Shown: positions 274-16,694 of the stretch, piece by piece
Numbering within the stretch: position 1 is the stretch's first letter
How the letters are laid out: each line of letters opens with the position of its first letter
Assembly: GCA_012961035.1 (NCBI GenBank)
Contig: DUAC01000019.1
Coordinates: 1-45,507, forward strand
Source: Acidimicrobiia bacterium
Lineage (GTDB): Bacteria > Actinomycetota > Acidimicrobiia > Acidimicrobiales > MedAcidi-G1
DNA: 45,507 nt
Reading direction: 5' to 3'
Notes under the pieces: model-generated
What the model was told of the DNA's origin: nothing
Databases searched by the model: none
Seen by the model: the letters and a program-made list of their open reading frames with translations, nothing else
Position numbers and translations under genes: made by a program

Positions 274-945
274 TCACTGCTGCACCATCGCGGTTGCGGT
301 TCCGGTGTTGGAAGATTCGAGTGGTTGGAGGAGTCGGTGCAGGGCGGTCACCCATGTCCGCCGGACCTGTCGAGGCGTGCGGTTGTGGTCGTGCACGATC
401 TGGTCCCAAGACTCGAAAGAGGTCAGGGTGCTGATGGTCGCCACGAGGTCGTCACGGGCAGAAGGACTCAAGGCCTCCAGTTCGTAGGCGAAGCATTGGC
501 GAATCTGGTCTGCCTGCCTGGCCCGAACGGAATGCAACTCTTCGTCAAGATCTGGAAAATCCGGGGCTCTTCTCCGGGCCTGGCGGCACATCGGTTCGGT
601 CGTTTCATACAACTTCGCCCGGCGGTTCACTAGAACCTGAGTGCGATGTTCGAGAGTGCTTTCGGTGATGTCCGGTAGCTGGAAAAGGTGGTCGTAGCGC
701 TTGAAGTATCGGCGAAGCGTCTCCTGCCTGAGCTCTTTGAGCGTTTCGAAATAGCGGAACAGGGAGGCGACCGAGACTCCTGCTCGCTTCGCTACCTGTT
801 CGGATGTCGGGTCCGTATTCCCTTCGACCATAAGGTCGATCACTGCGTCGGACACGGCAAGGCGGCCGCGTTCCCGCCGGGCCCGGCGGCCGTCGATGGT
901 CTCGTTGCCCAAAGCGGTCTGGGTCATCAGCGATTGCGGTGCCAT
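274..945 (-). CDS. TetR/AcrR family transcriptional regulator
   Basis: This 223-aa protein has the usual TetR length and layout: an N-terminal helix-turn-helix (GNETIDGRRARRERGRLA, then TSEQVAKRAGVSVASLFRYF) and a helical, less conserved C-terminal ligand-binding and dimerisation domain. It probably represses the divergent sulfatase operon, because the two genes share a roughly 100-bp region containing a perfect 6-bp-arm palindrome at 988-1004. The chosen ATG at 945 is preceded by a purine-rich GGGAGGAG stretch 11 nt upstream. An in-frame TTG at 969 would add 8 residues and cannot be excluded. The ligand is unknown but is likely a substrate or intermediate of the neighbouring pathway. The family call is firm; the target is inferred from position. 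Confidence 0.9.
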   Translation of the reverse strand: MAPQSLMTQTALGNETIDGRRARRERGRLAVSDAVIDLMVEGNTDPTSEQVAKRAGVSVASLFRYFETLKELRQETLRRYFKRYDHLFQLPDITESTLEHRTQVLVNRRAKLYETTEPMCRQARRRAPDFPDLDEELHSVRARQADQIRQCFAYELEALSPSARDDLVATISTLTSFESWDQIVHDHNRTPRQVRRTWVTALHRLLQPLESSNTGTATAMVQQ

Positions 946-987
946 CTTCGCCTCGTCTCCTCCCTGCAAACCGTGAGTTTAGCACTT

Positions 988-1004: not shown

Positions 1005-1046
1005 TTATACTCTCATAAGATAGAGTGCAACTTGGAGGAGGACACC

Positions 1047-3326
1047 GTGTCAAAGCCGGATCTGCCAACAGGCACCTTCCACGGCCGCATCGGTCGAACG
1101 TTTGCCGAATCAGAACCCTGGTTCGAGGAACCGGCACACCCTGCAGATGACTCACCCAACGTGGTCGTTGTGCTGCTGGACGACACCGGGTTCGCCCAAC
1201 TCGGTTGCTACGGGTCAGAAATCGATACTCCACATATTGATGAGCTGGCGGCGAGCGGCCTTCAGTTCACGAACTTCCACGTGACTCCGCTTTGTTCGCC
1301 GACCCGGGCCTCGCTACTTACCGGCCGGTCGCAGCATGCGGTCGGTATGCGAGCAGTGTCCAACTTCCAGACCGGATTTCCCCACCAATTGGGCCACATC
1401 TCAAACCACGCCGCCACGGTCGCCGAGGTACTCCAAGCCGAGGGTTACGCGACCTTCTGCACCGGCAAGTGGCACCTGGCCCCCATGGAACAGTGTTCGG
1501 CAGCCGGGCCGTTCGAGCAGTGGCCGCTGGGGCGCGGATTTGACCGGTTCTACGGATTTCTCGAGGGTGAAACCGATCAGTTCCATCCCCAACTGGTCTG
1601 CGACAACCACCCGATCGAGCCGCCCGGCAAGGCTGAGGACGGCTATCACCTCAGTGAGGACCTGGTCGACCAGTTGCTGCGGATGGTGTCTGACAGCAAG
1701 GGAGTCCGACCCGACCGCCCATTCTTCGCATACCTGCCCTTCGGTGCCACCCACGCTCCCCACCAGGCCCCACCCGAGCACCTGGCGAAGTACCGGGGCT
1801 CGTTCGACGAGGGTTGGGACGTTGTTCGACAGCGATGGTTCCAGCGTCAAATCGACATAGGGGTCATCCCTGAGGGCACTGAGTTGGCACCCCGGAATCC
1901 TGGCGTGGAACCGTGGGACACGCTGCCTGTCAACCAGCAACGCCTGGCTGTTCGGCTACAGGAAGCCTTTGCCGCCTTTCTCGACCACACCGACGACCAG
2001 ATCGGTCGCCTCGTCGACGGTCTCCGCGCTATTGGAGAACTGGACAACACGCTCCTCATCGTCCTAGCCGACAACGGCGCCTCCCAGGAGGGTGGTCCCT
2101 TCGGCGTCATGCACGAGATGAAGTTCTTCAACGGGATCCTCGAAACACCAGACGAGGCCGTCGAAAGGATCGACGAGATCGGTGGGCCACATAGCCACAC
2201 CAACTATCCGTGGGGATGGGCCCAGTGCGGCAACAGCCCGTTCAAGTGGTACAAGCAGAACACCCACGAGGGCGGGGTCCACGTCCCGATGGTCGTGTCC
2301 TGGCCAGCCAGCATCGAAGAAAGTCAGCGGGGGACGATGCGCGGGCAGTTCACCAACGTCGCTGACATCGTGCCCACCATCTACGACCTCCTCCAGATCA
2401 CTCCCCCTGACGTGTTCAGAGGCCGGAGCCAGTTGCCCGTCACAGGTCACTCGTTTGCCGATGTCTTCAGTGATGCAGAGGCGCCGGCACCCAACACCCT
2501 CCAGTACTTCGAGATGGCCGGCAGCCGGGCCCTGGTGGCAGGCCAGTGGAAGGCCGTCTGCAAACACCAGGAGGGAGCGGACTACGAAACCGAACCTTGG
2601 GAGCTCTACAACCTCAGCGTCGATGCATCGGAGTGCAACGACCTCTCCGGCTCGGATCCAAACAAGTTGGCAGAACTTGTTGCGTTGTGGTGGTCCGAAG
2701 CCGAACGCCACGGAGTCCTCCCACTCGATGATCGTGGCATGGGCAGTCTCTTTGGTGCCCGGTTCCGGGATCACTCACCCCACCCGCTCGACAGGCGCTA
2801 CGTGTATCGGCCACCAATGTCGCCGATCCCGGGTGGGGCGAGCGCAGCAACGGGCGGACGGAGCTTCGACCTGACCGCCCAGGTCACGAGGGCTAGTGGA
2901 GAAGACGGCGTCTTGTGGGCAACCGGCACCGAGAACTCCGGAATCTCGGTCTTCGTCCAAAACGAACGCCTGATCGTCGACTACAACGCGTTCGACAATC
3001 ACACCCTGTTGGAATCTGACGTCGACCTACCCGTCGGCGATTCGGTTCTGACAGCACGATTCCGACGAACTGGTGGCCAATCCGGAACCGTGATACTTGC
3101 CGTCGACGGCAATGAAGCAGGCCGGGTCGACCTGCCGTTCTACATGCGGATGATCTCCTCCGTTGGACCGAGCATCGGCTACGACCACGGCTCAGCAGTG
3201 TCCGATCGCTACCAGGCACCCTTCCCGTTCTCCGGGACACTCCACGAGGTCGAGATCCAACTGCTGTCACGGGCATCGGTGGAAGCCGAAGATGCTCTTG
3301 CCAGAGCGGAGATGGCCCGGCAATGA
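1047..3326 (+). CDS. Arylsulfatase-type sulfatase (formylglycine, Cys-type)
   Basis: This 759-aa protein of the alkaline phosphatase/sulfatase superfamily would hydrolyse sulfate esters. Near the N-terminus it has the metal-binding start VVVVLLDDTGF followed by the maturation motif CSPTR at Cys83, which a formylglycine-generating enzyme converts to formylglycine. GKWHL and the later ADNGAS segment fit the rest of the active site. After about residue 590 comes a beta-rich C-terminal extension ending around GTLHEVEIQL, also found in the third sulfatase of this window (19805-22135), so the two are paralogues. No signal peptide is visible, suggesting a cytoplasmic enzyme. The GTG at 1047 is chosen over an upstream TTG (1032) because GGAGGAGG lies 5 nt before it. 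It is first in a coupled operon: its TGA overlaps the next ATG. The substrate is unknown. Confidence 0.93.
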   Translation: MSKPDLPTGTFHGRIGRTFAESEPWFEEPAHPADDSPNVVVVLLDDTGFAQLGCYGSEIDTPHIDELAASGLQFTNFHVTPLCSPTRASLLTGRSQHAVGMRAVSNFQTGFPHQLGHISNHAATVAEVLQAEGYATFCTGKWHLAPMEQCSAAGPFEQWPLGRGFDRFYGFLEGETDQFHPQLVCDNHPIEPPGKAEDGYHLSEDLVDQLLRMVSDSKGVRPDRPFFAYLPFGATHAPHQAPPEHLAKYRGSFDEGWDVVRQRWFQRQIDIGVIPEGTELAPRNPGVEPWDTLPVNQQRLAVRLQEAFAAFLDHTDDQIGRLVDGLRAIGELDNTLLIVLADNGASQEGGPFGVMHEMKFFNGILETPDEAVERIDEIGGPHSHTNYPWGWAQCGNSPFKWYKQNTHEGGVHVPMVVSWPASIEESQRGTMRGQFTNVADIVPTIYDLLQITPPDVFRGRSQLPVTGHSFADVFSDAEAPAPNTLQYFEMAGSRALVAGQWKAVCKHQEGADYETEPWELYNLSVDASECNDLSGSDPNKLAELVALWWSEAERHGVLPLDDRGMGSLFGARFRDHSPHPLDRRYVYRPPMSPIPGGASAATGGRSFDLTAQVTRASGEDGVLWATGTENSGISVFVQNERLIVDYNAFDNHTLLESDVDLPVGDSVLTARFRRTGGQSGTVILAVDGNEAGRVDLPFYMRMISSVGPSIGYDHGSAVSDRYQAPFPFSGTLHEVEIQLLSRASVEAEDALARAEMARQ

Positions 3327-3772
3327 CCACTGTCGAGCGGTCCCGCCTCGTTGATGCCGCACCGACCGAGGTCTGGAAGGTGCTGTCCGAGTTCGAGACC
3401 ATAAGTTCGTGGGCGCCCAACGTCGAACACTCATGCCTCCTCACCGAGGAAACATCAGATGTCGGTACAACCCGTCGTGTGCAGGTTGGTCGATCAGCCC
3501 TCGCAGAGACGGTCGTCGAGTGGGAGGAACCGCACACCCTGTCGTACTCCCTCAAAGGGCTCCCACCAGTGATCCGCTCAGTCACCAACACCTGGCGGCT
3601 CGAACCAACCGAGGACGGAACGAAGGTGAGGCTGATCACCGACATCGATGCCGGCCCGCGACCCCCACAGAAGTTGATCGCACGCATCGTCGGGCGCAGG
3701 CTCGGGGCAGCATCCGACGAGATGCTCTCAGGGCTTGTCGCCCATTTGGGTCGGAGAGGGCAGCGGCCATGA
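3323..3772 (+). CDS. SRPBCC family protein (polyketide cyclase/START-like)
   Basis: This 149-aa protein has the opening typical of the SRPBCC helix-grip fold (VERSRLVDAAPTEVWKVLSE), then WAP...VEH and a central run of beta strands, and ends in an amphipathic helix. Proteins of this family bind hydrophobic ligands in a deep cavity; some are cyclases, dehydratases or aromatase-like enzymes, others only carry ligand. Start and stop both overlap neighbours by ATGA (3323-3326 and 3769-3772), so translation is probably coupled to both sulfatases. This points to a role in handling the desulfated product or the substrate, which is an inference. No catalytic residues can be assigned by eye. Confidence 0.8.
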   Translation: MTTVERSRLVDAAPTEVWKVLSEFETISSWAPNVEHSCLLTEETSDVGTTRRVQVGRSALAETVVEWEEPHTLSYSLKGLPPVIRSVTNTWRLEPTEDGTKVRLITDIDAGPRPPQKLIARIVGRRLGAASDEMLSGLVAHLGRRGQRP

Positions 3773-6345
3773 CCGTTCGACCCGACGTCATCGTCATTAT
3801 GACCGACGAGGAACGCGCCGCCCCACCGTACGAAAACTCAGACATCACCCGGTGGCGTGCAGAAGCGCTGACCGGTCGGGCCTGGTTCGACGAACACGCA
3901 CTCAACTTTGGGCGCCACTACACGGGCTCACTGGCCTGCGTTCCCAGTCGGCCGACGATCTTCACCGGGCACTACCCCGACGTTCATGGTGTGACCCAGA
4001 CCGACGGCCTGGGAAAGATGGCCGACGACTCGCGCCTACGTTGGCTGCGTGCCGGCGAGGTACCCACGCTCGGTCACTGGTTCAGGGCCGGCGGCTACGA
4101 CACCCATTACGACGGCAAGTGGCACATCTCCCACGCCGACCTGATCGACGAGAACACCGGCCAGGTTCTTGCAACCAACAACGCCGCCGGCGATGTCGAC
4201 CAGGAAGCCGTCGACGCATACCGCGCAGCCGATCCGCTCAACCCCTTCGGCTTTTCCGGTTGGGTAGGCCCCGAACCCCATGGTGCCCCACTCGCCAACA
4301 GCGGCTTCCGACGCGATCCACTCATCGCAGACCGAGTAGTCGCCTGGCTGCAGGACCGTTACAGCCGGCGAGCGGCAGGAGACGCGAACGCCTTGCGTCC
4401 CTTCCTGCTCGTCGCGAGCTTCGTCAACCCCCACGACATTGTCTTGTTCCCAGCCTGGGTTCGACGCGGAATCCCGATCAAGAACCAACCAGAACTAGAT
4501 CCACCCTCGATACCCGCATCGCCCACGGACGACGAAGACCTGTCCACCAAGCCAGCAGCCCAGATCGCGTACCGGGCGGCCTATCCGACGGGATATGGGC
4601 CGGCAGCAGCGGTTGCGCGGACCTACGACAAGAACGCCCAGAAATACCGGGACCTCTACTACCGGCTACACGCAGAAGTAGATGGCCCAATTGATCGGGT
4701 GCGTCGAGCCGTAACTGATGGAGGATCTGAACACGCGGTGATCGTGCGTACCTCTGACCACGGCGAGTTGCTGGGCGCCCATGGCGGCCTTCACCAGAAA
4801 TGGTTCAACCTCTACGACGAAGCTACCCGCGTCCCATTTTCGATTGCCCGGATCGGCACCAACGCCACCACCGGGATATTGATCCACGACGCCCCGACCT
4901 CCCACATCGACATCGTGCCCACCCTGTTGTCAGCGGCAGGTATCGACGAAGCGATGACCGCCAGCGTGCTCCAAGAATCATTCACCGAGGTCCATCCGCT
5001 GCCCGGTACGAACCTCATGCCGGTCGTTGATGGCGTTGAAGAGGTAAACCCCGATCGCACCGTCTACCTCATGACGCGCGACAACATGCTCGAGGGTGAT
5101 TCCGGCGCTTCCGGCGTGGCCCGCGCCACCGGCCGTGCCGCAAAACCGCCTGGACCGCTACGAATCCGAGTTCCGGAACATGTGGGCTCAAACTTCGAAG
5201 GGCTCGTTGCACGGGTTGACGACTCGATCAATCGTGGTGAAGGCCACCTGTGGAAAGTGGTTCGCACCTTTGACGACCCGGCTACGTGGACCAATCCGGG
5301 AGTCCGCCACCTCGCCTCAAGCGGCCTGGCTGGTGAGACGACCCGGACCATCCCACTCCCGGACCAGTGGGAGCTCTACGACCTCGACGCCGATCCGACC
5401 GAAGCCGTCAACCGATGGAACGACGATTCGGCCCGGGACGTGTTCGTCCACCTCCGCGCCCTCCTCAAAGAGGAGCGCTTCCGAGCCGTGCCCGAGCGAA
5501 ACAACCCGTGGCCCTATGCGTCACGTCAGCCAACCGGGGGACCGGCGACGAAGCGCCCACCCCCACCAGCGAGAATGTTTCGCAAGCTTGTACAGAAGAT
5601 TGGCATGCACCCCGAAGATCTGGACGCAGTCGAGTTCGGACTCGCCGGAAAGCGTGCCCTGGTGGTCGCAACGAACACCGCGGTAATGGACATCGGCAAG
5701 CCGACCGGCGTCTTCGCCAGCGAGATGACCGTTCCCTACTACGCGTTCCTCGACGCGGGCATGAAGGTGGACGTGGCAAGCCCCCTGGGAGGTGTGATCC
5801 CAGTCGACCCACAGTCGCTCAAGCCGGTCATCCGCACCGGTGACGACGACCGTTTCCTCGCCGACGACGACTTCCGGAACCAGGTCACCAACTCGCTGGC
5901 GATCGGGCAGGTGGACATGGCCGAGTACGACGTGGTGTTCCTCTCCGGAGGTTGGGGCGCAGCGTTCGACTTCGGATTCTCGGATGACCTGGCAGCCAGG
6001 ATCACCGAGGCGAACGCGCAAGGGAAGATCATCGGCGGCGTATGCCACGGCCCGCTCGGACTCCTCAACGCAAAGGATGCCGCTGGGGAACCGCTGGTCA
6101 AGGGCCGTCGGATTTCCGCAGTCACCGACAAGCAGGTGAGAGAACTCGGCATCCAATCCACCCCGCACCACCCGGAGAGGGAATTGCGTCGAGCCGGTGC
6201 GGTCTTCCAGAGCAGCACCAGGTTCCGTGACCCGTTTGCCAACCACTGGGTGGTCGACGGCAACCTTGTCACCGGTCAGAACCAGAATGCCGGTCCGATG
6301 GTTGCAAGGGAAATGATGGAACTCCTTGTTGCCCAGGATCTGTAG
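3769..6345 (+). CDS. Sulfatase fused to C-terminal DJ-1/PfpI domain
   Basis: This 858-aa protein contains two domains that are normally separate. Residues 1 to about 590 are a sulfatase: VIVIMTDEER metal-binding start, ACVPSR maturation motif with Cys57, and YDGKWHI. After a proline-rich linker (about 590-624), residues 625-858 form a DJ-1/PfpI-type class I amidotransferase-like domain: KRALVVATN, TGVFASEM, VFLSGGWGA and the nucleophile elbow GGVCHGP with Cys759. No stop or frame change separates the parts. The ATG at 3769 overlaps the previous stop. DJ-1/PfpI proteins include glyoxalases, proteases, hydratases and chaperones, so the second activity is open. The fusion suggests that a reactive product of desulfation is processed in place. 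Each domain call is strong; the joint role is inferred. Confidence 0.9.
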   Translation: MTVRPDVIVIMTDEERAAPPYENSDITRWRAEALTGRAWFDEHALNFGRHYTGSLACVPSRPTIFTGHYPDVHGVTQTDGLGKMADDSRLRWLRAGEVPTLGHWFRAGGYDTHYDGKWHISHADLIDENTGQVLATNNAAGDVDQEAVDAYRAADPLNPFGFSGWVGPEPHGAPLANSGFRRDPLIADRVVAWLQDRYSRRAAGDANALRPFLLVASFVNPHDIVLFPAWVRRGIPIKNQPELDPPSIPASPTDDEDLSTKPAAQIAYRAAYPTGYGPAAAVARTYDKNAQKYRDLYYRLHAEVDGPIDRVRRAVTDGGSEHAVIVRTSDHGELLGAHGGLHQKWFNLYDEATRVPFSIARIGTNATTGILIHDAPTSHIDIVPTLLSAAGIDEAMTASVLQESFTEVHPLPGTNLMPVVDGVEEVNPDRTVYLMTRDNMLEGDSGASGVARATGRAAKPPGPLRIRVPEHVGSNFEGLVARVDDSINRGEGHLWKVVRTFDDPATWTNPGVRHLASSGLAGETTRTIPLPDQWELYDLDADPTEAVNRWNDDSARDVFVHLRALLKEERFRAVPERNNPWPYASRQPTGGPATKRPPPPARMFRKLVQKIGMHPEDLDAVEFGLAGKRALVVATNTAVMDIGKPTGVFASEMTVPYYAFLDAGMKVDVASPLGGVIPVDPQSLKPVIRTGDDDRFLADDDFRNQVTNSLAIGQVDMAEYDVVFLSGGWGAAFDFGFSDDLAARITEANAQGKIIGGVCHGPLGLLNAKDAAGEPLVKGRRISAVTDKQVRELGIQSTPHHPERELRRAGAVFQSSTRFRDPFANHWVVDGNLVTGQNQNAGPMVAREMMELLVAQDL

Positions 6346-6389: not shown

Positions 6390-7214
6390 ATGACAAGCAG
6401 TGCACCTCGCTACGGCCTCGTCGACCGGGAATACGGCATCCAGTTGGCCACCACCTCACCAGCTGACGATGGCCCGGTATGGATGGTCAACCTGATGAAA
6501 TACCGTGAAGTGGCCGACTACGTAGACGGCCGAAAGACGACTATCTCTGGTCAAGCGGCAGATGACCTCTACTCGCCAATCGACTCACTGACCGCGGTCG
6601 GAGCCGAGATCGTCTTCCTGGGAGACGTAGACCAGCAACTCCTCGGCGACAACACCGTCTGGGATCGCATCGCTGTTGTGAAATACCCAACCCGCAAGTC
6701 GTTCATCGACATGCAGTCGCGCCCCCAATTCCAGGAATCCCACAAACACAAGGAGGCTGGGATGCAAAAGACCTTCGTCATCGGGTGCCAACCCCTGCAG
6801 GCTCCGGAGCTGCCACCCGACCTGGAACCCCTCGACTGGGCCGATGTTCCATACCCGCCGACGAAAGACGATGGTCCAGTAGTGGTGATGCACGTGTTGC
6901 GGTTCGAAGACGTAGATGCCGGGGTTCAGACCCCCGCACATTTGGAGGCTTACCAGTCGACAGCGGCAGTAGTCGCCTCAAAGCACGGCGTAAGGACCCC
7001 TGCCTGGTTCACAGTTGAAGGAACGATCATCGGTGACGGACGGGATTGGCACCAGGTGCGCTTCAACCAATTTCCAAGCAAGGCAGCGTTCATGGCCGTC
7101 GTTGCTGATCCAACCCGTCTGAAAGCTCAACATGACCATCGCGAGGCAGCGATTGCTGATACCTACACGATGATCGTTCGACCGAAAATCATCCAGCTCA
7201 GAGAGTCATTGTGA
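6390..7214 (+). CDS. Tandem DUF1330-like (dimeric alpha-beta barrel) protein
   Basis: This 274-aa protein looks like two copies of a ferredoxin-like alpha-beta barrel module. The first half has VWMVNLMKYRE and later WDRIAVVKYPTRKSFIDM, and the second has VVVMHVLRFED and later WHQVRFNQFPSKAAFMAV. Both follow the DUF1330-like pattern of an opening beta strand, then a tryptophan-led strand, a short loop and a helix containing F..M or F..V. Such barrels usually work as homodimers and include heme-, monooxygenase- and isomerase-like proteins. Here a single chain may form the pseudo-dimer. GAAGGAAG lies upstream of the ATG at 6390. The end overlaps the next gene by GTGA. It is probably an accessory enzyme or ligand-binding protein of the operon; no reaction can be assigned. 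Confidence 0.7.
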   Translation: MTSSAPRYGLVDREYGIQLATTSPADDGPVWMVNLMKYREVADYVDGRKTTISGQAADDLYSPIDSLTAVGAEIVFLGDVDQQLLGDNTVWDRIAVVKYPTRKSFIDMQSRPQFQESHKHKEAGMQKTFVIGCQPLQAPELPPDLEPLDWADVPYPPTKDDGPVVVMHVLRFEDVDAGVQTPAHLEAYQSTAAVVASKHGVRTPAWFTVEGTIIGDGRDWHQVRFNQFPSKAAFMAVVADPTRLKAQHDHREAAIADTYTMIVRPKIIQLRESL

Positions 7215-9043
7215 ACCCCAAAGAGGCCCTCCTCGATCCTGACGTCATGCGGGAGCGTTACCGGGTTGAGCGTGACAAGCGTCTTCGTGTCGACGGCAAC
7301 GACCAGTACGTCGACGTCGTCGGACCGTTCGCCCACTACACCGATGACCCCTACATCGAGTCGGGTATCGACCGTCCGCCCCTGGTCGATGAGGTCGATG
7401 TCGTGATCATCGGAGGTGGTTTCGGGGGACTGCAGATGGGGGCCCGCCTCCGTGATGCCGGGGTGGAGGACCTGCGGATCATCGAGAAGGGAGGCGATTT
7501 CGGTGGCACCTGGTACTGGAACCGGTACCCGGGGGCCCAGTGCGATATCGAGTCCTACATCTACCTTCCGCTCCTCGAGGAGGTCGGCTACATGCCCCGG
7601 GAGAAGTACTCCCACGCCCGGGAGATCCTTGACTACAGCCAACGACTCGGTCGCCACTACCGCCTCTACGACGGGGCGCTCTTCCAGACCGAGGTGACTG
7701 GGATGTCCTGGGATGATCAACTCTCACGCTGGATCGTGGACACCAATCGGGGAGATTCGCTCCGGGCCCGGTTCGTGGCCATGGCTAACGGTCCGCTGAA
7801 CCGCCCGAAACTCCCCGGCATCCCCGGCCTCGGCGACTTCGCGGGTCATTCCTTCCACACGAGCCGCTGGGACTACGAATACACGGGCGGAGGGCCAGAC
7901 GGTGACCTCGATCGCCTCGCAGACAAGCGGGTGGCGGTCATCGGTACCGGGGCCAGTGCCATACAGTGCGTTCCGTTCCTCGGCGAGGCCGCAGAGCACC
8001 TCTACGTCTTCCAGCGCACACCCTCGTCAGTGGACGTGCGCGGCAACCAACCCACCGAACCAGGGTGGGCCGCCGGCCTGGATCCGGGCTGGCAGAAGCA
8101 GCGCATGGAGAATTTCAACGGCCTGGTTTCGGGCCTGCCCCAGCCCGAAGACCTCGTTGATGACGGTTGGACCGACCTCATCGGCAAGATGATCCGACGC
8201 TTTCGGGAGGCCAGCGCTGACGGGAGCGTCGACATTCCCGAAGTGATGGAGCTGGCCAACTTCGACAAGATGAACGAGATCCGCTCTCGGGTCGACGACC
8301 TGGTGGAAGACCCGGAGGTCGCCGAGAAGCTCAAGCCCTATTACCAGATGTTCTGCAAGCGGCCGACCTTCAACGACGAGTACCTCCCGACGTTCAACCG
8401 GCCCAACGTCGAGCTCGTCGACACCGACGGGAAGGGTGTCGACCGCATCACCGAACGCGGCCTGGTCGTGGCCGGCGTCGAGCACGAGGTCGACTGCATG
8501 ATCTTTGCCACCGGCTTCGAGGTGGGGACCCCGTACGTCCGCCGGGCCGGGTACGAGATCCTCGGCAGCCGGGGGCGGACCCTCTCGGAGAAGTGGACTG
8601 ATGGGATGGCCACCCTGCACGGGATGCAGAGTCGGGGCTTTCCGAACTGCTTCTTCATGCAAATCAGCCAGACCGCCTTTACAGCCAACTTCCCCCACCT
8701 TCTCGAGGAGCTCACGACCCACCTGTCCCACATCATCGGTCACGCCCTGGATCGTGGCATCAGCACCATCGAGGTCTCACAGGACGCCGAGGATGCCTGG
8801 GTGGCGACGATCCGGGAGAAGGGCCTCGGTGCGATGGGGGCCCTCGGCGGGGCGGATTGCACCCCCGGCTACTACAACAACGAGGGACAGGCCCGCGAAC
8901 CTGGCTCGATTCAGGCGGCCCCATATGGTGGCGGTTCCATTGAGTTCTTCCGAATCCTCCAGCAGTGGCGGGACGACGGAGACTTCGCCGGTCTGGAGTT
9001 CACCCACTCCTCCACGAAAGATGGTGGACGGCCGCCTGAGTGA
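7211..9043 (+). CDS. Baeyer-Villiger-type flavin monooxygenase
   Basis: This 610-aa protein is a class B flavoprotein monooxygenase, which uses FAD, NADPH and O2 to insert oxygen next to a ketone or to oxidise heteroatoms. It has the FAD Rossmann motif IIGGGFGG (about residues 67-73), GGDFGGTWYWNRYPGAQCD (about 94-112, characteristic of BVMOs), the BVMO fingerprint FAGHSFHTSRWD (210-221) and the NADPH motif VIGTGASAIQ (243-252). ATGFE near residue 430 is also typical. The length is somewhat above the 540-aa classic enzymes because of an N-terminal extension, as in steroid and large-ketone monooxygenases. It starts with GTG overlapping the previous stop and closes the operon. The substrate is probably a cyclic or polycyclic ketone. 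Confidence 0.9.
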   Translation: MNPKEALLDPDVMRERYRVERDKRLRVDGNDQYVDVVGPFAHYTDDPYIESGIDRPPLVDEVDVVIIGGGFGGLQMGARLRDAGVEDLRIIEKGGDFGGTWYWNRYPGAQCDIESYIYLPLLEEVGYMPREKYSHAREILDYSQRLGRHYRLYDGALFQTEVTGMSWDDQLSRWIVDTNRGDSLRARFVAMANGPLNRPKLPGIPGLGDFAGHSFHTSRWDYEYTGGGPDGDLDRLADKRVAVIGTGASAIQCVPFLGEAAEHLYVFQRTPSSVDVRGNQPTEPGWAAGLDPGWQKQRMENFNGLVSGLPQPEDLVDDGWTDLIGKMIRRFREASADGSVDIPEVMELANFDKMNEIRSRVDDLVEDPEVAEKLKPYYQMFCKRPTFNDEYLPTFNRPNVELVDTDGKGVDRITERGLVVAGVEHEVDCMIFATGFEVGTPYVRRAGYEILGSRGRTLSEKWTDGMATLHGMQSRGFPNCFFMQISQTAFTANFPHLLEELTTHLSHIIGHALDRGISTIEVSQDAEDAWVATIREKGLGAMGALGGADCTPGYYNNEGQAREPGSIQAAPYGGGSIEFFRILQQWRDDGDFAGLEFTHSSTKDGGRPPE

Positions 9044-10444: not shown

Positions 10445-10924
10445 CTAGGGGCGCCAGTCGTCGCCGTGGCGCGACCATGGATTGTCCTGACCGTCCACCG
10501 GGACGGCCACGCGGGTGGCACACGTCGTGGCGACCACGTCGCCCACCATCAGGGCCACGTCCAGGTTGATCCATCCGCAGCCAGCGTCGTCGGTGCCGAC
10601 GAGGGTGACCGTGGCGTTGAAGGACATCAGGTCACCGGGGAACACCGGCGTGTTCATGCGGAAGGTCATCCGGCCGAGGCGACCGGTGGGTCCGGTCCAG
10701 TCGGTCACGTAGCGCTCGAACCAGGCGGCCTGGTTGGGGGTGTTCAGGAATATGTCCCGGGTGCCGTTGCGGTTGATGGCGAAGTCACGGTCGTGGTGCA
10801 TCGGGCGCCAGTCCCTGGATGCCAGGGCGCCGAGGACCACCGTGGTGGCGGTGACGTCGTGGTCCAGGCCCGGCAGCGTGTCGCCGACGGCCACGTCGCC
10901 CAGGAGCAGCAGCGGGGCGTTCAT
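10445..10924 (-). CDS. MaoC-like hot-dog dehydratase
   Basis: This 159-aa hot-dog fold protein probably hydrates a 2-enoyl-CoA or is one half of such an enzyme. It carries the hydratase-2 type segment SRDWRPMHHDRDFA, with the Asp and His of the D-x-x-P-x-H pattern, and FRMNTPVFPGDLMSF in the second half. The ATG overlaps the stop of the upstream gene (ATGA at 10921-10924, minus strand), so the two hot-dog proteins are likely made together and form a heterodimer. This resembles actinobacterial sterol side-chain enoyl-CoA hydratases, where a MaoC protein pairs with a second MaoC-like chain. A single-chain hydratase normally has two such domains and about twice this length. Confidence 0.85.
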   Translation of the reverse strand: MNAPLLLLGDVAVGDTLPGLDHDVTATTVVLGALASRDWRPMHHDRDFAINRNGTRDIFLNTPNQAAWFERYVTDWTGPTGRLGRMTFRMNTPVFPGDLMSFNATVTLVGTDDAGCGWINLDVALMVGDVVATTCATRVAVPVDGQDNPWSRHGDDWRP

Positions 10925-11487
10925 GCGGAGTCCCCGGAGGCCTGGTCCGTGTCGGCAGGTCGTCGATACCCGAAGGCCGTGTACGACTCCACGCCCAGAA
11001 GCTGGTCGTCCTGGTTCAGGTACTCCACGTCGATGGTCCAGAACCGGCCCCTGCCCAGCTTCGTGGTCTTGGGTTCGCTGACCGACCGGAGGACCTGCCG
11101 GGACCTCACCCGGTCGCCGATGCGGACCGGTTCGTGGAAGGTGTTGGTGTTCGACGAGATGATCGCCTCGGGGAGGTCCAGGGCGGCCTTCAGGTCGAAG
11201 TGGGCCTGGAGCGGGACGGCCGGTTCGGTGCGGCCCGGCGACCAGTGGTGGGGCCGGAACCAGACCGAGAGCATGGTGGGTGGCGCTATGGGTCCGTCTG
11301 TGATGGCGGTGGCCACGTCCTCGTCCCAGAACAGCGGGTTGCCGTTCTCCACGGCGGCGCACGTCGTCCAGACGTAGCCGTGCTCGACCGGGAATCCGCC
11401 CTCCTCGGCGTACTGGGTGACTCCTATGAGGTCGGTCACCGCTGCGGGGATGGGCATCGGCTCTCCTGCGTGGACCGTGTTGCTCAT
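10921..11487 (-). CDS. MaoC/FAS1-type N-terminal dehydratase-like protein
   Basis: This 188-aa protein matches the N-terminal dehydratase type of hot-dog proteins: GPIAPPTMLSVWFRP, then SSNTNTFHEPVRIGDRVRSR and FWTIDVEYLNQ. It lacks the D-x-x-P-x-H catalytic segment of its neighbour and is best read as the structural or CoA-binding half of a heterodimeric hydratase. The start at 11487 overlaps the stop of the CoA-transferase gene. An in-frame ATG at 11457 (giving MPIPAAVTDL...) has the better ribosome site, GCAGGAGAG, and may be the true start, giving 178 aa. No DUF35 domain is attached here, but an OB-fold is fused to the synthase-like protein across the divergent promoter. Confidence 0.83.
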   Translation of the reverse strand: MSNTVHAGEPMPIPAAVTDLIGVTQYAEEGGFPVEHGYVWTTCAAVENGNPLFWDEDVATAITDGPIAPPTMLSVWFRPHHWSPGRTEPAVPLQAHFDLKAALDLPEAIISSNTNTFHEPVRIGDRVRSRQVLRSVSEPKTTKLGRGRFWTIDVEYLNQDDQLLGVESYTAFGYRRPADTDQASGDSA

Positions 11488-12650
11488 GCGATGGCCCCCA
11501 CGTCCCTGAGCTCGCCGATCTCCGTGGCGCTGAGGCCTGCGTGGGCCAGGATCCGGTCGGTGTCGGGAATCGACTGGTCACGGACCTCCAGGGTGGAGGC
11601 ATCCACCTGGCCTGCCAGCGGAGCGGCCACCTGGCGGATGGTGCCGGCGGTTGGATGGGTGACCTCGGTGAAGTTGCCCCGTGCACCGAATTGCTCGTCG
11701 GCTACCACCTCCGGTATCTCCAGGACGGCCGATACGCAGGTGTCGGCAGGTCCGAGCTCTGCGGCCCAGTCGTCCCGGTGGCGGGTGGAGAACGCTGCGG
11801 CGAAGTCGACCCGCATGGCGTCGACAGCGTCATCGTCGTACTGGTGGTCCAGCCACCGTTCGGCTCCGAGTGCCCGACAGAGGTTGGCGAAGAACCGTGG
11901 CTCGATGGCTGCCACGGTCAACCAGCCACCGTCGGCGGCTTCGTACAGGTCGTACCAGGCGTAGCGGCCGGTCAGCAGGCCGTGGCGGGGGCCCGGTTCG
12001 GTGCCCTCCGCGAGGTACTCGTCCACCGCCAGGGACATGAGCGACAGCACGCCGTCGGCGATGGACACGTCCAGGTAGGTGCCCTCCCCGGTGGTTGCCC
12101 GGGCAACCAGGGCGGCACAGATGGCGGCGACGGCGTGGAGGCCCCCGGCGGCGCTGTCGGCAATGGTGGCTCCCGGCAGTGCGGGGCCGCCGCCCGCAGC
12201 GCGTCCCGAGCAGTGCAGGTAGCCGCCGACCGCCAGGTAGTTCAGGTCGTGGCCGGCCCAGCCGGACCGCGGGCCGGTCTGCCCGTAGCCGGTGGTGGAG
12301 CAGTAGACGATGCCGGGGTTCACCGTCGAGACGTCGTCGAAGCCGATGCCGAGTCGGTCCACGACTCCGGGTCGGAAGCTCTCGATCACCACGTCGGCGT
12401 CTGCAGCGAGGCGTAGGAAGGCGCCCCGGCCGCCGTCGGACTTGAGGTCAAGGAGCACACGGCGCATGCCCCGCTGGGCGCTGTATGCGTAGGCGGGGGG
12501 CACGATCTGGACGCCGGCGTCCTTCGGGACCGGCCCGACCTTGACCACGTCGGCTCCCCAGTCGGCCAGCCAGCGCGAGGCGCGCACGGCCGGTCCCACC
12601 GAGGCGAGGTCCAGGACGGTGATCCCATCCAGGAGGGGGCGATCGGGCAT
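11484..12650 (-). CDS. CaiB/BaiF family CoA-transferase or alpha-methylacyl-CoA racemase
   Basis: This 388-aa class III CoA-transferase fold protein starts with LLDGITVLDLASVGPAVRAS and has DWGADVVKVGP, VVIESFRPGVVDRLGIG, YCSTTGYGQTGP and the likely catalytic aspartate in ATIADSAAGGLHA, followed by TGEGTYLDVS. The family contains CoA-transferases and alpha-methylacyl-CoA racemases. In this operon, beside dehydrogenases and hydratases, a racemase that sets the stereochemistry of a 2-methyl-branched acyl-CoA before beta-oxidation is attractive but unproven. An ATG at 12650 fits the family N-terminus; the frame continues upstream without homology. It lies 10 nt after the stop of the dehydrogenase gene. 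Confidence 0.88.
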   Translation of the reverse strand: MPDRPLLDGITVLDLASVGPAVRASRWLADWGADVVKVGPVPKDAGVQIVPPAYAYSAQRGMRRVLLDLKSDGGRGAFLRLAADADVVIESFRPGVVDRLGIGFDDVSTVNPGIVYCSTTGYGQTGPRSGWAGHDLNYLAVGGYLHCSGRAAGGGPALPGATIADSAAGGLHAVAAICAALVARATTGEGTYLDVSIADGVLSLMSLAVDEYLAEGTEPGPRHGLLTGRYAWYDLYEAADGGWLTVAAIEPRFFANLCRALGAERWLDHQYDDDAVDAMRVDFAAAFSTRHRDDWAAELGPADTCVSAVLEIPEVVADEQFGARGNFTEVTHPTAGTIRQVAAPLAGQVDASTLEVRDQSIPDTDRILAHAGLSATEIGELRDVGAIA

Positions 12651-12660
12651 GCGGGGTCGC

Positions 12661-13854
12661 CTAGAAGTTCTTGGGGAGGCCGAGGCCCCGTCGGGTGATG
12701 ATGTTCTTCTGCACCTCGGAGGTGCCACCGCCGATGGTGTCCAGCACCGTGTAGCGGTAGGTGGATTCCGCCCGCCCTGCCATCGGCGCCTCCTCGGTGC
12801 CGACCCGCAGTTGTGTGCCGGGCCCGCCCAGGTCCATGGAGGCGTCGGCCAGCCGCTTGGAGAACTCGGTGGTGAAGAGCTTGTACTCCGAGGCTTCCAT
12901 GGTCGGCGGGTTGCCACCGTCGGACTCCGCCCTCATAGAGGCGTCGACCACCCGGAGGCCCATGCCGCGGGCCACCTCGGCGGTGGTGGCCAACCTGGCG
13001 ATCCGGGCCCGCACCTTCGGGTCGTCCTTCAGCGGCTCGCCGTCCCGGGTGGCGGTTCGCACATGGTCGACCAGCAGGTCCAGGCGCTGCTTCACCGGGG
13101 AGAAGGTGAACATGGTGAAGCGCTCCAGGTCGAGGGCCTGGGAGATGTACCGGAAGCCGTGGTTCAGCTCGCCCACCACGTACTCGTCGGGTACGAACAC
13201 GTCGTCGAAGAAGACGTCGTTGGTGCGTTCGTCGCCCATGGTCATGATGCCCTGGACGGTTATTCCCGGGTGGTCCATGGGCACCAGGAACAGGGTGATG
13301 CCGAAGTGCTTGGGGGCGTCCGGGTCGGTGCGGGCGCCCACCCAGTACCACTCGGCGAAGTGGGCCGAGGTGGTCCAGGTCTTCTGGCCGTTCAGGATCC
13401 AGCCGCCGTCGGTCTCGGTGGCCTTCAGCTTCATCGCAGCGGCATCCGATCCGGCCTCGGGTTCGCTGTAGCCGACGGCGAACTCGACCTCGTTGGCCAG
13501 GATCTTCGGTAGGAACTCCTCCTTCAGGAACTCCGAACCGTGGGCTATGAGGGTCTTGCCGATGATCCCGACGCCCTTGCCGATCTGGGGTCCTCCCCGT
13601 GCGGCCAGGGCCTCGTTCAGGATGTACTCGTAGATGCCCTCGCCCTCCTTGCCCCCGTACTCCTTCGGCCAGGTCATGCCCAGCCAGCCCTGCTCGCCGA
13701 GCTTTCGCATCAGGGCCCTGCGCTTCGGGGTGTCGACGATCTGGGCCATGTTCTCGCGAGTGGGGTCGAACACGTCGGGGTCGTCGTTGGCGTCCAGGAA
13801 CGCCTCGACCTGGACGGCGAAGGCCTGCTGGTCGGGTGAGAAGTCGAAGTCCAT
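12661..13854 (-). CDS. Acyl-CoA dehydrogenase (likely catalytic subunit)
   Basis: This 397-aa FadE-type acyl-CoA dehydrogenase is first in the minus-strand operon. Motifs in order are GEQGWLGMTWPKEYGG, FAVGYSEPEAGSDAAAMKLKA (flavin and substrate loop), LNGQKTWTTSAHFAEWYW, ERTNDVFFDDVFVPDEYVVG and IGGGTSEVQKNIITRRGLGLP. The C-terminal position that is Glu in medium-chain enzymes is Gly (GGGTSEVQ). A Glu is present in LDLERF, at the position used as catalytic base by isovaleryl-CoA and long-chain type enzymes. It therefore probably supplies the active site for a heteromer with the protein encoded at 9327-10436. Transcription starts in the divergent region with two palindromic operators. Confidence 0.92.
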   Translation of the reverse strand: MDFDFSPDQQAFAVQVEAFLDANDDPDVFDPTRENMAQIVDTPKRRALMRKLGEQGWLGMTWPKEYGGKEGEGIYEYILNEALAARGGPQIGKGVGIIGKTLIAHGSEFLKEEFLPKILANEVEFAVGYSEPEAGSDAAAMKLKATETDGGWILNGQKTWTTSAHFAEWYWVGARTDPDAPKHFGITLFLVPMDHPGITVQGIMTMGDERTNDVFFDDVFVPDEYVVGELNHGFRYISQALDLERFTMFTFSPVKQRLDLLVDHVRTATRDGEPLKDDPKVRARIARLATTAEVARGMGLRVVDASMRAESDGGNPPTMEASEYKLFTTEFSKRLADASMDLGGPGTQLRVGTEEAPMAGRAESTYRYTVLDTIGGGTSEVQKNIITRRGLGLPKNF

Positions 13855-13894
13855 GCGTGGTCGGGGTTTCCGGTCCAGTCGGGTGGTGCTGAAT

Positions 13895-13909
13895 CTGACG
13901 GTGTGTCAG
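13895..13909. promoter_or_regulatory. Operator-like palindrome 1, acyl-CoA module
   Basis: CTGAC-GGTGT-GTCAG is a 15-bp inverted repeat located 41 bp upstream of the minus-strand dehydrogenase start. It shares its outer bases and the CTGACGG half with palindrome 2 at 14007-14021. A TetR-type regulator is the likely ligand; none for this operon is encoded in the window. Confidence 0.6.
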
Positions 13910-14006
13910 GCCCTCAACGTATCGGATGCGGGCGCTGCTGTCCCCTCGGGAGGCACGGGCAGGCGGCCGGGGTCGGCGTCGTGGGCGCCACCTCGTAGGA
14001 TCGTTT

Positions 14007-14021
14007 CTGACGGACCGTCAG
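14007..14021. promoter_or_regulatory. Operator-like palindrome 2, acyl-CoA module
   Basis: CTGACGG-A-CCGTCAG is a perfect 7-bp-arm inverted repeat. A -10-like TAGGAT at 13996-14001 places the predicted transcription start of the plus-strand synthase gene inside this palindrome, so a bound repressor would block initiation. The same half-site occurs in palindrome 1, 112 bp away, suggesting one regulator controls both directions. Confidence 0.65.
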
Positions 14022-14067
14022 GAACTGGTGGTCACCCACAGGACGGAAAGCGGAGCAGGATGGGAGC

Positions 14068-15471
14068 ATGAGCGGCAGCAGGGGAATCCTCGCCTACGGC
14101 GTCCACCTGCCGTACAACCGGCTGGCCCGTTCGGCCATCGGCGAGGTGATGGGATCCGGTGGCGGACGCGGGCACAGGTCGGTGGCGTCCTACGACGAGG
14201 ACACCACCACCATGGGGGTGGAGGCCGCCCGGCGGACCCTGGCCGGCGGCGTACCCGCACCGCAGGCCCTGTGGTTCTCCACCGTCGCCCCGGCGTACCT
14301 GGACAAGACCAACGCCACCGTCATGCACGCAGCGCTCCGGTTGGATGCATCGGTTCCGGCGCTGGACTTCGGCGGGGCTTCACGCTCGGCCGTGGGCGCC
14401 CTGCGAACGGCACTGGACGGTCCGGCGAGGACGCTCGTGGTGGCTTCCGACATCCGGGTGAGCCTGCCCACCGGGCCGGAGGACGGTGGTGGCGGCGACG
14501 CCGCTGTCGCCATGCTGGTCGGATGCTCCGAGGACGGCCCACTCCTGGCCGGGTACCTGGGCGGAGCCTCGACCACCGCCGAGTTCACCGACCGCTGGCG
14601 CACGCCGGGTAGCGACCATTCCCGCAACTGGGAGGACCGCTTCGGCGAGCAGGCCTACCTGCCGCTGGTCCGCAGGGCCTGGGCCGATGCGCTGGCGGCC
14701 TCCGGGCTGACGACCGACGACGTGGCTGTCGCAGCCGTCACCGGACTGCACGCCCGTGCGACCCGAAAGGCCGCATCCGGCCTCGGCGTGGCCATTGCCG
14801 GTGACAGGGCCGAGACGGTCGGCAACGCCGGAGCCGCCCACCCGGCCCTGCTGCTGGCCGACGTCCTGGACACGGCCCAACCCGGAGACGTGGTCGCCCT
14901 GGTGGTGCTGGCCGACGGCTGCGAGGTCCTCTTCTTCCGGGCCACCGACGCCCTGTCGGCCGGCCGACCGGAGCGGTCGGTGGCGGACCAGGTCGCCGAG
15001 AGGGCCGACGTGGCCTACGCCCGCTACCTGGCGTGGCGTGGCCTGCTCCAGGTGCAGCCCCCCAACCGCCCGGGGCCGAACCGCACCTCGGCGCCCGCAG
15101 CCCTGCGTAGGACCGACTGGAAGCACGGCTTCGTGGGTTCCACGGACCGGACCACCGGCATCACCCACCTCCCGCCATCGCGGGTGGGGATCTCCGGTGG
15201 AACCGTCGACGACATGGACCCGACGCCCATGGCCGATGCCATCGGCACCGTCGCCACCTTCACCGTTGACCGGTTGGCCCACTCGCCCAGCCCACCCGTG
15301 GTGTTCGCCGTGGTCGACTTCGACGGTGGCGGCCGGATGCCGATCGAGCTGACCGACGTGGACCCCACGGCTGTGGCGATCGGCGACAGGGTGGAGATGA
15401 CCTTCCGACGCCTGTCCACGTCCGACGGCCTGCACAACTACTTCTGGAAGGGCCGGCCCCTCCGGGGCTGA
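14068..15471 (+). CDS. HMG-CoA-synthase-like protein fused to OB-fold (DUF35-type) domain
   Basis: This 467-aa protein has a thiolase-superfamily N-terminal part (about 1-340) of the HMG-CoA synthase/KAS III type: GILAYGVHLPYNRL, YDEDTTTMGVEAARRTL and VGNAGAAHPALLLADVL. About residues 400-467 form a DUF35-like OB-fold (VVFAVVDFDGGGRMPIE...GDRVEMTFRRL). The nucleophilic Cys is missing: the loop reads DFGGASRSAVGAL, with Ser105 where synthases have ACxxG. The zinc-ribbon cysteines that usually precede DUF35 OB-folds are also absent. In archaea, thiolase, HMG-CoA synthase and a DUF35 protein form one complex with a shared CoA channel; here two of the three are fused and a thiolase follows 26 bp downstream. 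GGGAG precedes the ATG. It may be a scaffold, a lyase or a synthase with another nucleophile. Confidence 0.85.
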   Translation: MSGSRGILAYGVHLPYNRLARSAIGEVMGSGGGRGHRSVASYDEDTTTMGVEAARRTLAGGVPAPQALWFSTVAPAYLDKTNATVMHAALRLDASVPALDFGGASRSAVGALRTALDGPARTLVVASDIRVSLPTGPEDGGGGDAAVAMLVGCSEDGPLLAGYLGGASTTAEFTDRWRTPGSDHSRNWEDRFGEQAYLPLVRRAWADALAASGLTTDDVAVAAVTGLHARATRKAASGLGVAIAGDRAETVGNAGAAHPALLLADVLDTAQPGDVVALVVLADGCEVLFFRATDALSAGRPERSVADQVAERADVAYARYLAWRGLLQVQPPNRPGPNRTSAPAALRRTDWKHGFVGSTDRTTGITHLPPSRVGISGGTVDDMDPTPMADAIGTVATFTVDRLAHSPSPPVVFAVVDFDGGGRMPIELTDVDPTAVAIGDRVEMTFRRLSTSDGLHNYFWKGRPLRG

Positions 15472-15497
15472 GCCGGCACGAGGGGACTGGAGTCCAC

Positions 15498-16694
15498 ATG
15501 GCCTCACACGGCATACGGGACCGCGTGGCGATCGTCGGCATGGGTTGCACGCCGTTCAGGGAGCACTGGGACTCCTCCCTGGACGACCTCCTGATCGACG
15601 CCCACGGCCTGGCGCTGTCCTCTGCCGGCATGGTCGCCGATGACATCGACGCCTACTGGTACGGCACGTCGCAGTCCTCGGCCTCCGGTATCTCGCTGGC
15701 CACGCCGCTGCGGCTGGCCGACAAGCCGGTGACCCGTGTCGAGAACTACTGCGCAACCGGGTCCGACGCCCTCAGGCAGGCCTGCTACGCCGTGGCGTCA
15801 GGGGCCTACGACGTGGCGGTGGCGATTGGCGCCGAGAAGGTCAAGGACGGTGGCTACCAGGGACTCAACGCCTTCCCCATCCCCACCGACGGCACCAACC
15901 GGACGCTCACGGCGGCGGCGATGTTCAGCCTCATCCTCCCCGCCTACGCGGAGCGCTACGGGGTGGACGCCGAGGAGCTGCGCTACGTGGTGGCGAAGAT
16001 CGCCGAGAAGAACCACTTCAACGGGGCACGCAACGAGTTGGCCCAGTTCCGACGCGAGACCTCGGCCGAGGCCATCTGCGAGATGCCGGCAGTGGCCGGT
16101 GGGCTCTCCGTGTTCGACTGTGCAGGGGTAGCCGACGGCGCGGCGGCCGCCGTCGTGGTGGCTGCCGACCGGGCGACGGACTACACCGATGCACCGCTGT
16201 ACGTGAAGGCCCTCTCGCTGGTGGCCGGTAACGGCAGTGGGCTGGTGGACCCGGAGTTCGACTTCACCACGCTGCCGGAGTGCGCCGCCGCCGCTGCCGA
16301 GGCGTACGCCCAGGTCGGCATCACCGACCCGCGGACCGAGCTGGCCATGGCCGAGGTCCACGACTGCTTCACGCCCACCGAGCTGGTGCTGATGGAGGAC
16401 CTCGGCTTCTGTGATCGGGGCACCGCGTGGCGCGAGGTCCTGGACGGCACCTTCGCCCTGGACGGAGACCTACCGGTCAACCCGGACGGCGGCCTGAAGA
16501 GCTTCGGCCATCCGGTCGGCGCCAGCGGCCTGCGCATGTACTACGAGGCCTGGTTGCAGCTTCGGGGCGAAGCGCCGGTGGAGCGACGGATCTCCACGCT
16601 CGCCGATCGCAGCATGGCGCTGATCCACAACCTCGGGGGCTACCCGGGCGAGATGGTCTCGTTCGTGGGGATCGTCGGCACCGAGCTGGGCTGA
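15498..16694 (+). CDS. SCP2-type thiolase / lipid-transfer protein family
   Basis: This 398-aa thiolase-fold protein has the acyl-accepting cysteine in VENYCATGSDAL (Cys85), the histidine motif VHDCFTPTE and GGLKSFGHPVGASG. The second C-terminal cysteine of biosynthetic thiolases is replaced in LIHNLGGYPGEMVSF, as in SCP2-type thiolases and the actinobacterial sterol aldolases of the Ltp group. Those enzymes act with a DUF35 partner, and here the OB-fold is fused to the preceding protein, so the two gene products probably form a complex. The reaction is likely thiolytic or retro-aldol release of a short unit from a CoA-bound chain. GGGGACTGGAG precedes the ATG. It ends convergently with the DinB-like gene. 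Confidence 0.88.
   Translation: MASHGIRDRVAIVGMGCTPFREHWDSSLDDLLIDAHGLALSSAGMVADDIDAYWYGTSQSSASGISLATPLRLADKPVTRVENYCATGSDALRQACYAVASGAYDVAVAIGAEKVKDGGYQGLNAFPIPTDGTNRTLTAAAMFSLILPAYAERYGVDAEELRYVVAKIAEKNHFNGARNELAQFRRETSAEAICEMPAVAGGLSVFDCAGVADGAAAAVVVAADRATDYTDAPLYVKALSLVAGNGSGLVDPEFDFTTLPECAAAAAEAYAQVGITDPRTELAMAEVHDCFTPTELVLMEDLGFCDRGTAWREVLDGTFALDGDLPVNPDGGLKSFGHPVGASGLRMYYEAWLQLRGEAPVERRISTLADRSMALIHNLGGYPGEMVSFVGIVGTELG

Follow-up and report, generated by a model that had tools for sequence, protein, structure and literature searches.

A Cys-type sulfatase fused to a DJ-1/PfpI domain, with a small SRPBCC-type partner gene in front, in an Acidimicrobiia bacterium and its relatives

Contig DUAC01000019.1 of an Acidimicrobiia bacterium (GenBank assembly GCA_012961035.1) carries a single reading frame that appears to encode two enzymes, an N-terminal sulfatase and a C-terminal DJ-1/PfpI domain. 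Is this frame one real gene, are both of its halves maintained, and why should they be joined? The whole stretch of 45,507 nucleotides that we analysed is called the window. Both enzyme families brought together here are large and, for the most part, of unknown substrate; the fusion suggests that their functions belong together, and one substrate, once found, may reveal the other. The fusion proved to be real and is found in many relatives of this bacterium, preceded by one and the same small partner gene, whose constancy is a further clue.

An earlier reading of the window from sequence alone had described a complete Cys-type sulfatase (CVPSR, Cys57) and a DJ-1/PfpI domain (GGVCHGP, Cys759) in one frame, and coordinates, motifs and Pfam matches agree with it (Table 1). 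Pfam model PF00884 (Sulfatase) matches residues 5-392 with an E-value of 7.8e-39 (134.2 bits against a cut-off of 25), and PF01965 (DJ-1_PfpI) matches residues 650-851 with an E-value of 1.6e-11 (44.7 bits against 26.6). The SGSH_C model from Pfam also matches the protein, just at its cut-off, and no NCBIfam model reaches its cut-off. The proline-rich linker described between the two halves holds for about residues 588-602 only; the preceding motif VPERNxPWPYAxR (residues 574-586) is also present in stand-alone relatives and so is part of the sulfatase. In 57 of the 67 aligned fusions (the window sequence and 66 of the 80 loci introduced below), the stretch 584-604 has a length of 19-22 residues.

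A scan of contigs found 376 candidate relatives, of which the best 80 were kept, ranked by full-length match to the query, a ranking that favours fusions among the loci kept. Both domains lie in one frame at all 80 of these best loci; the frames of four (L005, L019, L053, L071) leave the end of the locus yet extend to query residue 807 at least. The sequence-only reading had itself raised two trivial accounts, that homologues are always two separate genes and that a sequencing error had removed a stop codon here. We examined both, and reject both on the strength of the one-frame fusions at 80 of 80 loci. The broader suspicion that annotation or assembly error has run two genes together is likewise refuted, since the fusion recurs at these loci in many assemblies, some of them not marked as metagenome-assembled genomes. 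Records of this last kind include Nocardioides sp. Root1257, Streptomyces sp. CB02009 and IMCC26207, and the fusion should therefore be testable.

Searching genomes of the phylum with the family alignment (E-value 1e-30) gave matches in 36 of 396: nine with fusions (one, G086, split across two contigs of the assembly), eight, all from another actinobacterial genus that we call g65, with a close sulfatase without the DJ-1 domain, and the remaining 19 with distant sulfatases or DJ-1 proteins only. At the class level (E-value 1e-60), 29 of 296 genomes matched, 19 of them with full fusions, and in family f38 the 12 matches among 201 genomes were all from g65 and all sulfatase only. The phylum and class sets overlap, and the genome-search and contig loci are not independent, some coming from one and the same organism (L113 and L035, for example, and likewise L114 and L051, are identical in the tree). 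Fusion carriers include Acidimicrobiia, Ilumatobacter, Nocardioides, Streptomyces and Nitriliruptoraceae. Two carriers bear odd labels, Planctomycetaceae (L082) and Bifidobacterium breve (L032); their nearest tree rows are L018 (Candidatus Microthrix) and L027 (an actinobacterium) respectively, and misbinning is therefore likely.

BLASTP at an E-value of 1e-3 reveals no DJ-1-like frame within 6 kb of the nearest plasmid sulfatases (Paenibacillus, Tistrella, Azospirillum, Aureibacter), nor does a sulfatase of this kind adjoin the DJ-1 gene of a Sinorhizobium plasmid. Among the matches listed from phage records all are to single domains, and none covers 80% of the query in one place. The architecture had been called non-standard, and the literature agrees so far as we searched it: no publication on a sulfatase-DJ-1 fusion is among those listed, with subscription papers and domain-architecture databases, where an automatic listing is possible, lying outside the scope. 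The terms "DJ-1", "fused" and "modular" were all without match in the SulfAtlas paper (PMC5066984).

As to function, we favour, with a probability of roughly 0.42, a bifunctional enzyme located in the cytosol and encoded in a catabolic operon, whose sulfatase would cleave the sulfate from a hydrophobic ester and whose DJ-1 domain would act on the product or a related carbonyl compound; the substrate, the order of steps, the cytosolic location and the catalysis by the DJ-1 domain are the parts that we infer. In this scheme the SRPBCC-type partner would hold or present the ester, and the N-terminal half, a Cys-type (formylglycine) sulfatase, would remove the sulfate and so release an alcohol of hydrophobic nature or a related product. 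The C-terminal DJ-1 domain, of the Hsp31 type and equipped with a Cys-Glu-His set, would then convert this product, or a carbonyl compound formed from it, either by hydrating an aldehyde or keto-aldehyde or by an internal redox reaction of such a compound, or else by Cys-mediated hydrolysis.

Both active sites had been judged intact, and the alignment upholds this. Sulfatase residues D13, C57, P59, S60, R61, K117, H119, H222, D330, H331 and K344 are invariant in all 67 fusions, as are E652, C759, H760 and Glu803 of the DJ-1 domain; position 14 of the sulfatase is Glu in 48 and Gln in 19. The sulfatase set comprises metal-binding and catalytic residues. Roles of some class I catalytic residues are given in PMC5870055, and PMC4021431 and PMC5691139 describe the Glu and Cys of Hsp31-type enzymes as essential for glyoxalase III activity. 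Since the fused domain has the Cys-Glu-His set, chemistry at this site is plausible, and Glu803 could complete a Cys-His-Glu triad. Structure prediction, which had been proposed as a check on the two active sites, recognised both folds and left residues 331-350 of the sulfatase weak. The AlphaFold2 model, built on the family alignment, has a mean predicted local distance difference test (pLDDT) score of 86.2 and a predicted template modelling (pTM) score of 0.72; Foldseek matched its N-terminal part to class I sulfatases (7lha, 6fny and others) and its C-terminal part to 4p5p and 1u9c (template modelling score, TMt, 0.91 each) and to glyoxalase III 4lru (TMt 0.82).

The 67 fusions share on average 67% pairwise identity in residues 4-560, 49% in 561-625 and 70% in 626-853, and the DJ-1 half is therefore not decaying. 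Ratios of nonsynonymous to synonymous substitution rates (dN/dS) were taken from the 40 pairs of lowest dS out of 916, which share sequences and so are not independent. For 17 close pairs among these (sulfatase dN below 0.12), the median is about 0.13 for the sulfatase and about 0.11 for the DJ-1 domain; over all 40, many of them near saturation, the values are 0.293 for the sulfatase, 0.323 for the DJ-1 domain and 0.432 for the linker. Low dN/dS in both domains counts for the bifunctional enzyme. The main rival takes the DJ-1 domain to be a structural appendage that dimerises and stabilises the sulfatase, or serves as a built-in chaperone, as in large-subunit catalases. That arrangement offers a precedent for a DJ-1/Hsp31-type domain placed C-terminal to another enzyme (PMC9137513), choline-sulfatase and phosphonate monoester hydrolases oligomerise via C-terminal tails according to PMC5870055, and one genus, g65, is missing the domain. 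A scaffold, however, would not need Glu652, Cys759, His760 and Glu803, each kept in 67 of 67, and we consider a purely structural role unlikely, although it is the rival to be taken most seriously.

The fused DJ-1 domains were compared with 16 stand-alone relatives, 15 of them from the 17 DJ-1-only places in the phylum genomes and one the Sinorhizobium plasmid gene. A quick tree, with long-branch warnings, puts all 67 fused domains on one side of a branch and the 16 on the other (Shimodaira-Hasegawa-like approximate likelihood ratio test, 100). The GGH, EE and QNP signature of the stand-alone Hsp31-type relatives is absent from the fused domains: W729 replaces a His found in 15 of 16 (GGH to GGW), Q789-V790 stands for EE in 15 of 16 (EE to QV), and Q839 for Pro in 15 of 16 (QNP to QNQ). 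Furthermore, V785 faces Phe in all 16, and R820 belongs to an extra stretch that aligns to gaps in all 16. As judged from the alignment, the fused domain is a subfamily of its own, its catalytic residues kept and other signature residues changed.

These changes bear on what the domain does. The sequence-only reading had suggested that the fusion may couple desulfation to the handling of a reactive carbonyl product, and this stays a hypothesis: the Glu-Cys-His set is present, but the changed residues speak against a simple methylglyoxalase, and the domain may act on something other than methylglyoxal. A second rival sees no link between the two activities and takes the DJ-1 domain for a general-purpose glyoxalase III or deglycase that is merely carried along, or for one that shields the formylglycine or side chains of the enzyme from carbonyl damage. 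It can point to the Glu-Cys-His set described for glyoxalase III; yet GGW, QV and QNQ have changed relative to the stand-alone relatives and then become fixed, which suggests specialisation, and we know of no DJ-1 protein acting on formylglycine. We regard this account as quite improbable. It is conceivable, if doubtful, that the fused DJ-1 domains form a new subfamily of enzymes with a chemistry of their own, each acting jointly with its sulfatase on a single substrate delivered by the SRPBCC partner, and that the three together form a previously undescribed desulfation-and-carbonyl-conversion unit.

The SRPBCC-type gene is the constant neighbour. We examined 81 places (the 80 loci and the window), three of which (L036, L057, L066) are too short; at all 78 with at least 450 bp upstream, the gene lies on the same strand no more than 300 bp upstream of the fusion. 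Measured to the site matching query residue 1, an overlap of 4 bp is the commonest spacing (21 of 78), and in the window the stop codon of the gene overlaps the ATG of the fusion by 4 bp (ATGA, 3769-3772). The profile used for counting was built from open reading frames (ORFs) at 50 of the very loci counted; plain BLASTP with the window protein also finds the gene adjoining the sulfatase in whole-genome loci, at 40-53% identity. The encoded protein is a possible binder of hydrophobic ligands. Its sole NCBIfam match, to the Rv0910 toxin model (32.2 bits against a cut-off of 100), is a label that would mislead.

Beyond the earlier reading go both this constant partner and the sulfatase of g65, which does without the DJ-1 domain and thus provides a natural control. 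Genus g65 has an SRPBCC-sulfatase pair in which the sulfatase is 69-74% identical (eight measured). The SRPBCC gene stands beside it in 12 of 12 cases, one of them cut by a contig end, and the flanks fetched for all 12 (up to about 6-8 kb, shorter at contig ends) hold no DJ-1 frame. All 12 tails retain PERxxPWPY, followed by a short ending, often rich in Pro and Arg, a shape that fits a cut at the linker and is not proof of one. A separate case is L106 (G156:C157), where one genome has a fused and a stand-alone copy, the latter 68% identical to the sulfatase of the window. This stand-alone copy has neither a DJ-1 domain nor an SRPBCC neighbour, and the more distant sulfatases fetched show no SRPBCC gene either.

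Of the 106 sulfatase rows, 54 (with 5 of the 12 from g65) went into a tree that has distant sulfatases as outgroup and nests the g65 clade (100/100) and L106 inside a mostly fused group (98/95). The fewest changes that explain it are three, one gain and two losses, for the tree and across the bootstrap range; well-supported branches alone force only two. A quick tree of all 106 rows, with long-branch warnings, also needs three. A single clade of all fused proteins disagrees with the tree, but the approximately unbiased (AU) test does not reject it (p 0.155), so that loss of the DJ-1 domain in g65 is favoured though not proven. The Rv3076-Rv3077 genes of M. tuberculosis may be a further stand-alone pair; the published passages found on them are silent about function, and no argument here draws on them.

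Maturation of the sulfatase would call for a formylglycine-generating enzyme (FGE), and the genome of the window has an FGE gene (PF03781, 7.8e-78). Taking as strong a PF03781 match below 1e-60 (our own cut), any and strong matches occur in 17 and 13 of 20 fusion genomes, in 12 and 12 of the 12 g65 genomes with the stand-alone sulfatase, and in 5 and 3 of 20 genomes of the same order without a family match. The FGE-poor fusion genomes are G113 and G515 (single contigs), G156, G631, G069, G596 and G344; their four weak PF03781 matches are possibly EgtB-like. G344 is only 84% complete. Other sulfatases were looked at in the remaining six, and several show the Cys motif; Cys57 itself is invariant in the fusion family. 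The anaerobic maturase model TIGR03942 has no match over its cut-off in ten genomes, all seven FGE-poor ones included. Either an unrecognised maturation route or missing data would account for these genomes. With regard to location, the motif of the conserved first strand was found at 74 of the 80 loci, and at 70 of these an ATG or GTG precedes it by 3-9 residues. If this start is used there is no room for a signal peptide, and the fusion protein is therefore probably cytosolic.

The surroundings of the fusion in the window (Table 1) look like a five-gene operon, running from a second sulfatase through the SRPBCC-type protein, the fusion and a DUF1330-type protein to a monooxygenase, behind a divergent regulator. 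The second sulfatase overlaps the SRPBCC start by 4 bp, and the monooxygenase start overlaps the DUF1330-type gene by 4 bp. The monooxygenase model, NF045818, is that of PtlE, pentalenolactone D synthase. Beyond the SRPBCC-type gene, neighbours vary across loci and point to no substrate; this comparison uses crude ORF calls, one of which (L043) is wrong. Positions 10924-16691 of the window hold a FAS1-type dehydratase region, a coenzyme A (CoA)-transferase III, an acyl-CoA dehydrogenase, a ChsH2-type OB protein and a thiolase, and are a CoA-dependent degradation cluster, with which the monooxygenase and the CoA-type genes fit. A third sulfatase, again of the long type (776 residues), lies at 19805-22135, and the draft genome has nine sulfatase matches.

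Table 1. Features of the window around the sulfatase-DJ-1/PfpI fusion.
Feature	Coordinates	Strand	Remarks
TetR-type regulator (named by eye)	274..969	-	Divergent from operon; similar ORFs at 35/80 other loci
Second sulfatase	1032..3326	+	PF00884, E 2e-63; 764 residues, long type; similar ORFs at 31/80 other loci
SRPBCC-type protein	3323..3772	+	PF10604 Polyketide_cyc2, E 2e-24
Sulfatase-DJ-1/PfpI fusion protein	3769..6345	+	858 residues; ATG at 3769, stop codon ending at 6345
Sulfatase core	3781..4944	+	Residues 5-392; Pfam and fold
Cys57 of CVPSR, predicted formylglycine site	3937..3939	+	Invariant 67/67
Proline-rich linker	5530..5574	+	Residues 588-602
DJ-1/PfpI domain, Hsp31/glyoxalase III type	5650..6327	+	Residues 628-853; Pfam, alignment and fold
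Glu652	5722..5724	+	Aligned with conserved Glu of Hsp31-type glyoxalase III; 67/67 fused, 16/16 stand-alone
Trp729	5953..5955	+	GGW in 67/67 fused; GGH in 15/16 stand-alone relatives
Cys759-His760 of DJ-1 domain	6043..6048	+	67/67; Cys759 codon 6043-6045, within GGVCHGP
Glu803, conserved acid	6175..6177	+	67/67 fused, 14/16 stand-alone
DUF1330-type protein	6390..7214	+	PF07045, 26.2 bits vs cut-off 23; similar ORFs at 33/80 other loci
Flavin monooxygenase resembling PtlE	7211..9043	+	NF045818, 773.8 bits, below cut-off 1100; similar ORFs at 2/80 other loci only

Several observations weigh against the bifunctional catabolic enzyme that we favour. Genus g65 (12 genomes) keeps the SRPBCC-sulfatase pair without the DJ-1 domain, and the pair can therefore dispense with it. 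The catabolic neighbours seen in the window are not constant across loci. The weak stretch of the structural model holds H331 and K344 (pLDDT block means 54 and 59), and sulfatases among the 50 fold matches listed are only 14-20% identical. Of the 20 fusion genomes, seven lack a strong FGE match, four of them having weak PF03781 matches and three having none, so that modification of Cys57 is not assured. Finally, residues that are near-constant in stand-alone DJ-1 proteins differ here, and glyoxalase activity is not transferable from them.

Among known systems, the large-subunit catalases are alike in joining an unrelated enzyme to a C-terminal DJ-1/Hsp31-type domain; PMC9137513 credits their Hsp31-derived domain with stability and chaperone activity. 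In the fusion the DJ-1 domain has invariant catalytic residues, those of the catalases being outside this comparison. With class I sulfatases (choline-sulfatase 6fny, exo-L-galactose-6-sulfatase 7lha and phosphonate monoester hydrolase 4uph) the fusion shares its fold and D13, C57, R61, K117, H119, H222, D330, H331 and K344, and Glu or Gln at position 14 probably matches Gln15 of choline-sulfatase. It differs from these three in its extra C-terminal DJ-1 domain, its SRPBCC partner gene and the low identity of the listed matches given above. With Hsp31-type DJ-1/PfpI proteins (4p5p, REP24; 1u9c; Candida albicans glyoxalase III 4lru; and SAV0551, the last from the literature only) it shares the fold (TMt 0.82-0.91), the Glu-Cys-His set and the conserved Glu at 803, whereas the placement of the domain behind a sulfatase, the GGW, QV and QNQ motifs, V785 and the R820 stretch set the fusion apart.

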